NCBI GenBank assembly: GCA_019359515.1
Contig: JAHHHC010000003.1
Span: forward strand, 1 to 64,000
Direction of reading: 5' to 3'
From: Desmonostoc vinosum HA7617-LM4
GTDB lineage: Bacteria; Cyanobacteriota; Cyanobacteriia; Cyanobacteriales; Nostocaceae
Length of the DNA: 64,000 nucleotides
The notes beneath the pieces are model-generated. The model searched no databases. It saw nothing but the letters and a program-made list of their open reading frames with translations, and was not told where the DNA came from. The position numbers were made by a program, and so were the translations under genes. Of this stretch, positions 3,452-36,358 are shown piece after piece (position 1 is the first letter of the stretch; the number at the start of each line of letters is the position of its first letter).

Positions 3452-3815
3452 ATCTTGCACCTTTCAAACTGTCAGTCGCAAAACTTACCTAATTGTTCGG
3501 CTTCGCTCTCTACCGCCAGGGATTGTAAATCCCTGTCTTATAGCAAAAGTCCATTAGAAATGGACTAAATACAGAGACAAATAGATATGTAATTTTTATA
3601 ACTTTATTGCGGCAGACTCATTAGACCTCTTGCAAAAGTCGGATACTCGCCAGAAAATAAATTTTCTGGCTGATAACTCAAGTCGGTTTCAACCGACTAA
3701 TAACAGTATTTTTAGTCCGTTTCAACGGACTTTTGCTATTAGGCAGAGACTTGAGTCTCTGACGGTTCAAGTATTTTTGCAAGAAGTCTATTATTTTCAC
3801 TGGCAGGTGCAAGAT
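3452..3815. mobile_element. palindromic repeat element with ATCTTGCACC ends, carrying a nested MITE
   Basis: The 10-bp perfect inverted termini ATCTTGCACC (3452-3461) and GGTGCAAGAT (3806-3815) match those of the element at 36085-36358. Inside are two hairpins of the four-stem family: one at 3514-3535 (CCAGGGATTGTAAATCCCTG) and one near 3547-3567 (AAGTCCATT...AATGGACT), joined by the connector TATAGCA. The right half is interrupted by the complete 169-bp element at 3622-3790. No ORF in it is credible. The stretch 3283-3451 shows nothing I can assign apart from a CAGCGTAGTCGAAG motif near 3358. Confidence 0.6.
3622..3790. mobile_element. 169-bp four-hairpin MITE, copy 1
   Basis: The terminal inverted repeats are TAGACCTCTTGCAAAA and its near-complement TTTTTGCAAGAAGTCTA. 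Inside are four perfect or near-perfect hairpins: CCAGAAAATAAATTTTCTGG, AGTCGGTTTCAACCGACT, AGTCCGTTTCAACGGACT and CAGAGACTTGAGTCTCTG. The copy at 16213-16381 has the same length and differs by one base. It has no coding capacity, so mobility must come from a transposase elsewhere. The TA at each end is compatible with TA target duplication but cannot be told apart from the element ends. Confidence 0.8.
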
Positions 3816-15151: not shown

Positions 15152-15235
15152 AATTATTATGGCGATCGCGCTACTAGATTAGGGGACAAAAGGAAGCTGA
15201 GGATTGGAAACAAAACTGTCAATTAGCTAACAAGC

Positions 15236-15366
15236 CCGCCAGGGAATTAAATTCCCTGTCTCATAGCAAAAGTCCTCTGAAGAGGACTGAGAAAAATGAG
15301 AAAGACAATTTTAGTCGGTTTCAACCGACTTCCGCTATTAGCCCGGAAATTGATTTCCGGACGGGT
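15236..15366. repeat. four-hairpin palindromic repeat
   Basis: The stems in order are GCCAGGGAATTAAATTCCCTG, split here as GCCAGGGAAT and ATTCCCTG, then AGTCCTCTGAAGAGGACT, AGTCGGTTTCAACCGACT and CGGAAATTGATTTCCG. The connectors CATAGCAAAAG and CCGCTATTAG match those of the other family members. It lies 3' of the glycosyltransferase gene and upstream of the RAYT-like gene. Confidence 0.75.
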
Positions 15367-15389
15367 GTGAATGTAAACAATATGATTAA

Positions 15390-15530
15390 TCAATCGACCT
15401 TAACCAAAAACGGGCGCAAGTTGAAATTATCGGTGGTAAAGCTGCACAAAAGAAACCCAAGGCTAAAGCTAGTAAACCGCTTAAAATTAAGGAAGATGTA
15501 CCAATAGTACCAGGGTTAGATGGGTTGTAG
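15390..15530 (+). pseudogene. 3' remnant of an unidentified gene (46 codons)
   Basis: An open stretch beginning just after a stop encodes SIDLNQKRAQVEIIGG, then a Lys/Pro/Ala-rich tail ending IVPGLDGL and TAG. Its composition looks like a real C-terminus, but there is no start codon and nothing recognisable upstream. It lies between two palindromic repeats, so the 5' part of the gene was probably lost when they inserted. Identity unknown. Confidence 0.35.
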
Positions 15531-15534
15531 TAAA

Positions 15535-15688
15535 TAGCCAGGGAATAGCCAGGGAATATAATTCCCTGTCTAATAGCGTAAGTCCTCTAAAAGAGGACTG
15601 AGACAAATTTGGTTTAATTCCTGTAGGTTTTACACAGTCGTCTTCAGACGACTTTAGCTTTGAGACGGGGAATTTCATTCCCTGGCTA
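15535..15688. repeat. four-hairpin palindromic repeat with TAGCCAGGGAAT ends
   Basis: The 12-bp inverted termini are TAGCCAGGGAAT (15535-15546) and ATTCCCTGGCTA (15677-15688). The internal stems are AGGGAATATAATTCCCT, AGTCCTCTAAAAGAGGACT, AGTCGTCTTCAGACGACT and GGGGAATTTCATTCCC, joined by AATAGCGTA and TTTAGCTTTGAG. It is the upstream flank of the RAYT-like transposase gene; its right end is 73 bp before that gene's start. Confidence 0.75.
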
Positions 15689-15761
15689 ACTGACTAGCTG
15701 ACGAACACCGCTAATATGATAATTTTTCAGCAACATGGGAAACATAAATATATGTAAATAA

Positions 15762-16193
15762 ATGCAAAATTTTAAAAGTGTTATGTCTCTGTGGCGACTT
15801 TATTATCATATTGTTTGGGCAACAAAAGAACGCCTACCTCTAATTACATCTGATAAAGAAACTGCGCTTTATAATTACATAATTGGTAAATCCAATAGTT
15901 TAAATTGTATACTTCATGCCATTGGTGGTACTGAAGACCACATACATTTAGTAGTATCTATTCCTCCAATAATGGCGATCGCAGAGTTTGTGAAAAAAAT
16001 TAAAGGAAGTAGTTCTCACCATTTCAACCACAATCTTTGTCCTACATCAGAAAAATTTGCTTGGCAAGAAGGATACGGTATATTCTCTTTGAGAAGCAAG
16101 CAACTTGAGCAAGCCATTATATATGTTCAAAATCAAAAAACACATCATCTTAAAGGAACAATAAACTCTCATTTAGAAAAAGTAAGCGCATAA
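15762..16193 (+). CDS. tnpA: IS200-like / RAYT-type Y1 transposase, 143 aa
   Basis: Single-strand DNA transposase of the HUH Y1 type (Transposase_17 family). The HUH motif is DHIHLVVSIPP at about residue 75, and the C-terminal helix with the candidate nucleophilic Tyr is AIIYVQNQKTHH. WRLYYHIVWATKERLPLI is the usual opening. I keep the ATG at 15762; MSLWRLYYH at residue 8 is an alternative. Palindromic repeats lie close on both sides (15535-15688 and 16213-16381). This is the layout of REP-associated tyrosine transposases, which mobilise hairpin repeats. No tnpB is adjacent. Confidence 0.85.
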   Translation: MQNFKSVMSLWRLYYHIVWATKERLPLITSDKETALYNYIIGKSNSLNCILHAIGGTEDHIHLVVSIPPIMAIAEFVKKIKGSSSHHFNHNLCPTSEKFAWQEGYGIFSLRSKQLEQAIIYVQNQKTHHLKGTINSHLEKVSA

Positions 16194-16212
16194 CTAAACC
16201 TGTTTTATACAA

Positions 16213-16381
16213 TAGACCTCTTGCAAAAGTCGGATACTCGCCAGAAAATAAATTTTCTGGCTGATAACTCAAGTCGGTTTCAAGCGACTAATAACAGTAT
16301 TTTTAGTCCGTTTCAACGGACTTTTGCTATTAGGCAGAGACTTGAGTCTCTGACGGTTCAAGTATTTTTGCAAGAAGTCTA
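16213..16381. mobile_element. 169-bp four-hairpin MITE, copy 2
   Basis: Same length and sequence as 3622-3790 except for one base (a C to G change that breaks one pair of the second stem). It begins 20 bp after the stop codon of the RAYT-like gene. Near identity of two copies 12.6 kb apart implies recent movement or gene conversion. Bases 16382-16477 show nothing further. Confidence 0.8.
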
Positions 16382-28487: not shown

Positions 28488-28613
28488 CCCGCCAAGAAAT
28501 TTATTTCTTGGCTAATAGCTCAAGTCTACTGAAGTAGACTCAAAATCTTGGGGGATATTCAGTCATCTTCAGATGACTTTTGCTATCAGCAAGGAACTTC
28601 AATTCCTTGCGGG
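28488..28613. repeat. four-hairpin palindromic repeat
   Basis: The stems are GCCAAGAAATTTATTTCTTGGC, written here as GCCAAGAAAT and ATTTCTTGGC, then AGTCTACTGAAGTAGACT, CAGTCATCTTCAGATGACT and AAGGAACTTCAATTCCTT. The connectors TAATAGCTCA and TTTTGCTATCAGC are as in the other members, and outer CCCGC/GCGGG closes the element. The rest of the gap to 28731 holds no gene; it includes ATCATCCCACAATTATGCAA (near 28677), repeated with one change near 51537. Confidence 0.75.
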
Positions 28614-35953: not shown

Positions 35954-36031
35954 AAATTCCTCGCCCACAAGGGTACGAGGAATTTGGTAATTGGTAATGG
36001 GTAATTGGCCAATTACCCATTACCAATTACC
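35954..36031. repeat. hairpin plus 46-bp perfect palindrome
   Basis: Bases 35954-35985 form a 10-bp stem (AAATTCCTCG / CGAGGAATTT), a likely terminator for the upstream gene. Directly after it, 35986-36031 is a perfect palindrome with no spacer: the 23-bp arm begins GGTAATTGGTAATGGGTAAT and ends TGG, and the second arm is its exact complement. The arms contain heptamer-like GGTAATT units. Confidence 0.9.
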
Positions 36032-36084: not shown

Positions 36085-36358
36085 ATCTTGCACCTGCCCA
36101 ATCTCCCGCCAGAGAATAAATTCTCGCTCTTATTAGGTCAAGTCCACTTAAGTGGACTAAAATCTATGCTTTTCGTGAGATTTAGTCCTCTTGAGAGGAC
36201 TTTTGCTAAGCTGTTCCACATATAACTTGCATAATTAGGGCGGGCAAGATGCCCACCCCACAAGAGTGTTATTTAATTTGATTATGTAATTTAGATGTTT
36301 TTTAGCTTATTAGCCATAGGTTAGAAACCTATGGCGGTTTTTGGGACTGGTGCAAGAT
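36085..36358. mobile_element. four-hairpin element with ATCTTGCACC ends, carrying MITE copy 3
   Basis: Perfect 10-bp inverted ends (36085-36094 and 36349-36358) match those of 3452-3815. Stems: a GAGAATAAATTCTC core, AGTCCACTTAAGTGGACT, AGTCCTCTTGAGAGGACT and ATAGGTTAGAAACCTAT. The connector after the third stem, TTTTGCTATTAG, is split after TTTTGCTA by the 103-bp MITE (36207-36309, minus orientation). Without the MITE and one TA it is about 173 bp. Confidence 0.8.
36207..36309 (-). mobile_element. 103-bp TA-flanked MITE, copy 3
   Basis: Reverse-oriented copy of 645-747. It sits inside the four-hairpin element at 36085-36358: joining the flanks with a single TA restores the connector TTTTGCTATTAGCC seen in the intact relatives. 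This is independent support for TA target duplication. The remaining gap to 36441 holds CCCCCTGCCTCCCC-type tandem units and no gene. Confidence 0.88.

Follow-up and report, generated by a model that had tools for sequence, protein, structure and literature searches.

Among the described systems, the arrangement reported here comes closest to the REP and REPIN repeats of RAYT (class 2) transposases, in which a Y1 gene is flanked by palindromes that are dispersed through the genome, often as inverted pairs, and in which each enzyme has its own repeat (PMC2817692, PMC3116915, PMC8266576; here and below, papers are cited from the parts of their text that were available). IS200/IS605 insertion sequences and their short nonautonomous derivatives belong to the same enzyme family and carry hairpins near their ends. 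A further group, TnpA subclass 1.2, comprises proteins of about 148 amino acids from Cyanobacteria and Bacteroidetes with the motifs DH[IV]H, WQ, and Y---Q--HH; in the available part of Quentin et al. 2018, this subclass is entered as "no" under REP and as "generally without" terminal IS200 structures (PMC6006769). In filamentous cyanobacteria, the GTAG-12/15/16 REPs are GTAG tagged, form dimers, and in some cases lie inside longer palindromic sequences (Di Nocera 2013, PMC3733652, as there described). According to the accessible text of the respective papers, REPINs have been reported in Nostoc punctiforme, but for RAYTs (PMC3116915), and 147 MITEs of Anabaena sp. 90 have no insertion sequences that match them (PMC3542288). 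Our literature search, with most subscription papers outside its scope, returned no paper tying TnpA subclass 1.2 to repeats. Small mobile repeats of cyanobacteria were reportedly treated by Elhai in 2008. In the present study, a 64-kb stretch of DNA (the window) was analyzed, in which a four-hairpin repeat and a subclass 1.2 Y1 transposase gene probably form a REPIN/RAYT-like system with paired-hairpin ends. We take the partnership of the repeats with a subclass 1.2 enzyme as new; as sequences, the repeats may already have been noticed by others.

The repeat unit in the window is a half-module in which CCCGC is followed by an 8-bp stem A, 1 base, the connector CTAATAGC, 2 free bases, an A, and stem B, which consists of AGTCNNNT and ANNNGACT separated by 2 to 3 bases; two half-modules in inverted arrangement make up the four hairpins. 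A covariance model (R1) built from four window half-modules (15313-, 28488+, 3646+, and 3714-) found 12 half-modules in the window at 41 bits or more, of which 8 were outside the training set, and the four-hairpin repeat family proposed in a first-pass annotation of this DNA is therefore real. The 12 matches are the intact halves listed in Table 1; they include five +/- pairs with 15 to 36 bp between the halves, that is, two inverted REPs and a spacer, as in a REPIN. The common layout of the members named in that annotation was borne out, with two amendments. The members at 3622-3790 and 16213-16381 represent a single MITE in two nearly identical copies and make up one member, and in the member at 36085-36358 the half starting at 36105 is intact and the second half (36184-) has been broken by an insertion, leaving an R1 score of 21.5 bits and a displaced stem A. 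The stem triplets that had been named are present in the stems of the window repeats. The connectors, which had been called nearly constant, vary more than that, as 106 of 133 distinct half-modules from the window and its relatives fit CTNAWAGC. The genome from which the window comes has 7.2 Mb in 94 contigs, and 864 kb of it contains 36 half-modules of 39 bits or more. Twelve of these 36 lie inside the 64-kb window, a local excess. A perfect palindrome with 22-bp arms, composed of GGTAATTGG-like repeats (35986-36031), adjoins the M3 element.

Table 1. Repeat elements and transposase gene of the window (R1 scores from the window-trained model)
Feature	Coordinates	Strand	Parts	Remarks
Single half-module	3512..3566	+		R1 53.5 bits; within a longer element, 3452-3815 (ATCTTGCACC ends), invaded by M1
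Second window copy of MITE M1	3623..3789		core halves 3646-3698 (+), 3714-3766 (-)	target duplication ATT
Complete four-hairpin element	15235..15365		halves 15235-15288 (+), 15313-15365 (-)	R1 62.7 and 79.3 bits; second half belongs to the training set
Four-hairpin element just upstream of the Y1 gene	15545..15689		halves 15545-15599 (+), 15636-15689 (-)	R1 48.2 and 44.1 bits
Y1 (HUH) transposase, 143 aa	15762..16193	+		Pfam Y1_Tnp 94.4 bits
MITE M1, 167 bp, with four-hairpin core	16214..16380		halves 16237-16289 (+), 16305-16357 (-)	terminal repeats AGACCTCTTGCAAAAG..; target duplication AAT
Four-hairpin element, M2 form	28488..28613		halves 28488-28540 (+), 28561-28613 (-)	outer repeats like TTGGTGTCAANTTAA in other copies
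M3 form, ATCTTGCACC ends	36085..36358		half 36105-36158 (+); second half, stem B 36184-36201	stem A of second half pushed to 36313-36335 by insertion

The open reading frame (ORF) at 15762-16193 scored 83 bits with the NCBIfam model transpos_IS200 and 24.3 bits with the NCBIfam RAYT model (REP_Tyr_transpos), below the cut-off of 80, and its product matched the sequence of IS608 TnpA (PDB 2a6m) at an E value of 7e-8, so that the predicted Y1 fold is given by the Pfam and PDB sequence matches. Its motifs, DHIH, WQ, and YVQNQKTHH, are those of TnpA subclass 1.2, and NQ stands where RAYTs have NP after the tyrosine. As to the start, the ORFs of two relatives begin at MSLW, the 8th codon of the window ORF. 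The protein shares 87% identity with those of Nostoc sp. JL34, Nostocales cyanobacterium LEGE 12452, and Nostoc sp. NMS4, and judged by these nearest named relatives the organism is Nostoc-like. Of 145 genomes of the family, 79 contain relatives of the gene (E up to 1e-15). The window gene is the sole match of its kind among 11 Y1 matches in its own genome, and Y---Q--HH was absent from all nine other matches with readable sequence (L017 lies outside this set). Compared with RAYT systems, as far as these are described in the text available, there are two hairpins per "REP" here, and the enzyme is of class 1, with Y---Q--HH and without the NP motif. Unlike IS200/IS605 elements, the window gene is single in its genome, the ends are double hairpins, and gene-less elements far outnumber the gene, with at least 196 R1 matches (E up to 10, mostly of the M1 form) in the same genome.

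To relate genes and repeats, database rows with at least 55% identity to the window protein were classed as close, and 49 of these 65 rows were taken as loci, the other 16 being second or partial matches. Y---Q--HH was found in 45 of 45 close-clade proteins, which had been selected for HUH and NQ (4 of the 49 loci failed this selection). R1, which was trained on the window alone, detected half-modules of at least 30 bits at all 29 relatives' loci searched with it (63 to 77% identity), and a second model (R2), trained on those 29 loci plus own-genome copies, detected them at 19 of 20 further loci (58 to 66% identity), none of which was in its training set; R1 was run unfiltered on the 29 loci and R2 with default filters on the 20. 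A single locus among the 49 (L159) had no module. At 48 of 49 loci, the nearest half-module lay no more than 186 bp from the matched stretch, and at 47 of 49 no more than 154 bp. By chance, fewer than 1 of 49 loci would be expected to have a module, whether calculated from 7 matches in 388 kb (three genomes of one genus) or from the 36 matches of at least 39 bits in 864 kb of the window's own genome, an expectation that is rough, as other genomes may be denser in half-modules. None of the 10 other Y1 loci of the window's genome reached 30 bits for half-modules. By nearest halves, 15 loci were of a pair-gene-pair type and 13 of a half-gene-half type, and 13 were empty on one or both sides; the gene has cognate palindromes on its flanks, and these recur across the genome, as in a REPtron. 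At five loci (L132, L134, L138, L099, and L259), modules form tandem arrays beside the Y1 gene with periods of about 85 to 120 bp, and at L259 three 166-bp units lie there, which suggests local amplification.

A sister clade of Y1 genes has a module of its own. Twenty of the 53 rows with less than 50% identity were examined as sister loci, and all 20 proteins had HUH and Y---Q--HH. The sister module consists of a stem A, GCGATT-GGA-AATCGC or similar, the connector GGCTACACAGACGA, and a stem B with a CTNC loop; on the other strand it reads ..TTTGCCTGTGTAG-CC-stem A, with a GTAG tag in the position of the close clade's TTAG. In having a tag 5' of the hairpin, TTAG in the window module and GTAG in the sister clade, both modules resemble the REPs of RAYTs as the available text portrays them. 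Like the GTAG-12/15/16 REPs, the window repeats form dimers of which some lie inside longer elements (M1 to M3), but the window module has TTAG in the place of the tag; the GTAG-tagged sister module may be one of the GTAG-12/15/16 families (PMC3733652). A model of the sister module (R3; 17 sequences from 9 loci) scored at least 30 bits at all 20 sister loci, 11 of them outside training, some with modules identical to training sequences, and at 0 of 49 close loci (best, 23.9). Conversely, the close-clade model reached 30 bits at 0 of 20 sister loci (41 to 47% identity; best, 22.0). Among the 10 control Y1 loci, R3 matched at one, L017, where the module lies about 1 kb from the gene. In eight genomes with both loci (G032, G060, G064, G069, G091, G092, G103, and G117), each gene had only its own module, and the pairing of clade and module gave Fisher P values of 2e-16 and 9e-18 (kinship ignored). 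Gene and module are thus associated, and specifically so.

Relative to the connector, the sister stem B loop has a single orientation, CTNC; the search was for that loop, and exceptions may be missed. On the strand with the GTAG tag, this loop is GNAG at L120 to L139, in a search set for it. DNA hairpins of the form d(cGNABg) are among the very stable DNA tetraloops, and a GNAG loop would fit a single-strand hairpin. At 11 of the 20 sister loci (L120 to L123, L126 to L129, L133, L136, and L138), the downstream ORF starts like DndD, and in 10 of these 11 the upstream ORF ends like DndC; NCBIfam named the flanks DndD and DndC at L128, and PADLOC ranked PbeC above DndD for L128, L126, and L136. 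The sister Y1 gene and its modules thus often lie inside an operon of the DNA phosphorothioation type.

The presence of two-hairpin modules at 48 of 49 close and 20 of 20 sister loci differs from the "no" under REP for subclass 1.2 in the part of the source available (PMC6006769). This is a correction to the description of the class and does not exclude the protein from it. The automatic REP search of Quentin et al., as described there, required GT[AG]G next to a G+C-rich stem and retained families close to tnpA_REP genes (PMC6006769), so that it could have missed two-hairpin modules such as these.

Abundance across genomes was also related to the genes. In 145 genomes, genes were classed as close (at least 55% identity) or sister (34 to 47%), with one partial match at 51% left out, and R2 and R3 counts refer to the matches listed, about 40 per genome. 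Five or fewer R2 matches were found in 0 of 52 genomes with a close gene versus 29 of 93 without, and five or fewer R3 matches in 0 of 47 genomes with a sister gene versus 41 of 98 without. Among the matches listed, the R2 median was at least 40 with and 14 without the close gene, and the R3 median was at least 42 with and 11.5 without the sister gene. For each matching pair, permutation within genera gave P = 0.00025 (17 and 18 informative genera), the floor for 4,000 permutations, and the crossed gene-module pairs were weaker but not nil (P = 0.034 to 0.037). With E up to 1e-4, the close-clade module was present in 139 of 145 genomes and the sister module in 127 of 145. Thirty-two genomes had at least 30 R2 matches and no close gene detected, and the window's own genome had at least 42 R3 matches and no sister gene detected. 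Since many genomes keep repeats without a detected gene, the Y1 gene is not needed for the persistence of the repeats.

Many copies of the core lie inside MITEs. M1 is a 167-bp element with terminal repeats AGACCTCTTGCAAAAG, found in the window at 3622 and 16213 and at no fewer than 40 near-identical places (at least 95% identity) in its own genome, this being the best 40 of 229 candidates scored; about 60 halves among the R1 matches listed (150 of 4,127 candidates scored) had the right-half score of M1. A 3-bp target duplication was present in 14 of 15 nonredundant M1 copies with flanks, versus a mean of 4.8 and a maximum of 10 when shuffled. M1 thus has the terminal inverted repeats and the fixed-length target duplication of a MITE, and because it has both, the transposase that moves it would be of the DDE type. 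In M2 (28488) and M3 (36085), the core lies between terminal repeats other than those of M1, and in one relative 10 of 20 copies were bordered on one side or both by an M2-type repeat. Since so many copies sit in MITEs, dispersal has occurred at least partly by a route other than the Y1 enzyme, and the share of the copy number that has the M1 form must be taken out of the earlier proposal that the repeats are copied as single-stranded DNA. Insertions are nested at two places: M1 (3623-3789), a MITE within a MITE, lies together with the lone half-module in the element at 3452-3815 with ATCTTGCACC ends, and at L082 (10751-11055) an additional insertion, with TAGGCTGT..ACAGCCTA at its borders, interrupts the core of an M3 copy.

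These elements raise the alternative that the core is nothing but the interior of the MITEs M1, M2, and M3 and that a Y1 gene lies next to it by coincidence, in spacers rich in repeats. The terminal repeats of all three forms and the duplications of M1 agree with it, as does the fact that the repeat downstream of the window Y1 gene is an M1 copy that is missing in relatives. However, this alternative does not predict a separate module for each of two gene clades, nor modules at 48 of 49 Y1 loci versus 0 of 30 control loci at 30 bits. Moreover, elements that lack the four hairpins (L052, 2707-2951; L087, 5985-6119) bear the terminal repeats of M1 as well, and the four-hairpin core of M1 is therefore cargo of the MITE. 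We regard the alternative as quite improbable and favor a system of repeat and Y1 enzyme.

The history of the locus was examined by comparison with relatives. In four Nostoc or Nostocales relatives (L259, L260, L261, and L263), the element and the gene have a split dnaE (intein N-part) on one side and a fibronectin-binding/RqcH-like gene on the other; the flanking genes were named in L260, and the other three share the flanks. The element at 15545..15689 is kept in these four at 83 to 88% identity, and window positions 15547-16194 match the L260 block at 88% over 673 bases. The window block is flanked by two glycosyltransferase-like genes, of which one scores below its Pfam cut-off, and the window genome's own dnaE piece is 193 kb away on the same contig. 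As all four relatives have the element-gene block at a shared locus, the difference counts as a single event of relocation or gain. In L259 and L263, a further 46 to 58 bp upstream is also shared. The module upstream of the Y1 gene is conserved in the relatives, and the downstream M1 copy is absent there. No clean empty site was found for three elements of relative G113; L172 and L175 were searched in 16 genomes of the genus, followed by alignment, and L176 by search alone, and flanks were located but the spacers between them were rearranged. Likewise, about 110 kb compared in three genomes showed presence and absence of elements with rearranged spacers and no clean junction. Sharp match ends (starts at 501 to 506 in 101 of 126 rows) were rejected as evidence of insertion, as they mirror the ends of the query itself.

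At 43 loci of distant relatives from many phyla, perfect stems of at least 7 bp numbered 3.6 per kb within 250 to 300 bp of the match versus 0.6 per kb farther away, at least one near stem occurred at 33 of the 43, and the densities were 3.7 versus 0.6 per kb when eight nearer cyanobacterial loci were added. At L267, a Bacteroidetes locus, copies of one two-hairpin block stand on either side and point the same way. R2 reached 30 bits at 6 of 51 wider loci, all cyanobacterial (L259 to L264).

The first-pass annotation had also claimed that stem changes are compensated, and it had proposed a covariance model with a covariation test and a comparison with Rfam as checks. Over the 133 distinct half-modules, 97.5% of 2,108 cells pair, compared with 77.2% when shuffled and 31 to 46% with partners slid, and 12 of 16 pairs show two-sided changes. 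The covariation score for the window and related genomes was 0.519, versus 0.145 in shuffles that keep the relatedness among the rows and at most 0.123 with slid partners. By cells, there were 412 two-sided changes, 9 one-sided changes that keep the pair, and 53 unpaired cells. Among 28 distinct own-genome rows, 98.4% of cells pair and 10 of 16 pairs have changed on both sides. A model with this structure underlay both alignments, and the counts therefore lean toward pairing. Compensation thus held; the M1 copy at 16213 has one uncompensated mismatch, in the stem at 16272-16289.

The compensation can be read in more than one way. RNA stems usually change via G-U pairs, whereas G-U pairs in either order made up 13 of the 2,108 cells here; because such intermediates are scarce, the compensation argues for DNA rather than RNA pairing. 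A transcribed structured RNA, for example, a terminator or a stabilizer of mRNA, would account for the stable predicted folds and the covariation, and most of the inspected copies are intergenic. Nevertheless, an RNA family is very improbable, given that the near absence of G-U pairs and the 9 one-sided pair-keeping changes against 412 two-sided ones are unlike RNA stems, that the stems are palindromes with the same reading on both strands, that an Rfam search of the window gave 0 matches at the gathering threshold, and that the repeats are linked to a single-strand DNA enzyme. Where the annotation had left the choice between RNA and single-stranded DNA during transposition, these results speak against the former, and the single-strand transposase that adjoins the repeats and goes with them speaks for the latter.

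The annotation had further concluded from the compensation that the folded form is "selected or copied as a structure". Selection is not a strict consequence, since template-switch (quasi-palindrome) correction would likewise keep stems perfect, and compensation does not by itself establish selection on the folded form. Watson-Crick compensation with few intermediates is what such correction should leave behind, and the association with the enzyme could be real even so. It would not, however, explain why the AGTC/GACT part of stem B is nearly invariant and the unpaired connector largely conserved, or why the CTNC loop of the sister module has one orientation relative to the connector, which symmetric correction leaves unexplained. 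That the stems owe their perfection to this process without selection on the fold strikes us as rather unlikely.

In our preferred reading, a REPIN/RAYT-like system, the four-hairpin repeat would be the counterpart of a REPIN, with two inverted two-hairpin "REPs" (stem A, connector, and stem B). The subclass 1.2 Y1 enzyme would bind the folded single strand, most likely the one on which the tag (TTAG or GTAG) precedes hairpin A on its 5' side, its tyrosine would cut beside the module, and by analogy with what is thought of RAYTs and REPs, the enzyme may copy or move short half-plus-half elements in trans. Cutting and mobilization by the enzyme are inferred. Separately, MITEs with terminal repeats and target duplications have acquired cores and multiplied them.

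A broader proposal is that class 1 (IS200-type) Y1 enzymes gave rise to a REPtron-like system independently of RAYTs, with the pair of hairpins and the tag as the recognition unit, that the close and sister clades diverged in module and enzyme together, and that relatives in Bacteroidota and other phyla follow the same plan; for this proposal, we see the balance as even. If it is true, the element would offer four hairpins to its enzyme, and the system would bridge insertion sequences and REP systems as a living intermediate. A transposase subclass described as REP-less gains a repeat partner, and the two gene clades with two modules, often within one genome, provide a built-in control. With them, the coevolution of a single-strand transposase and its repeat, as well as single versus multiple origins of REPs from insertion sequences, becomes testable in pairs.
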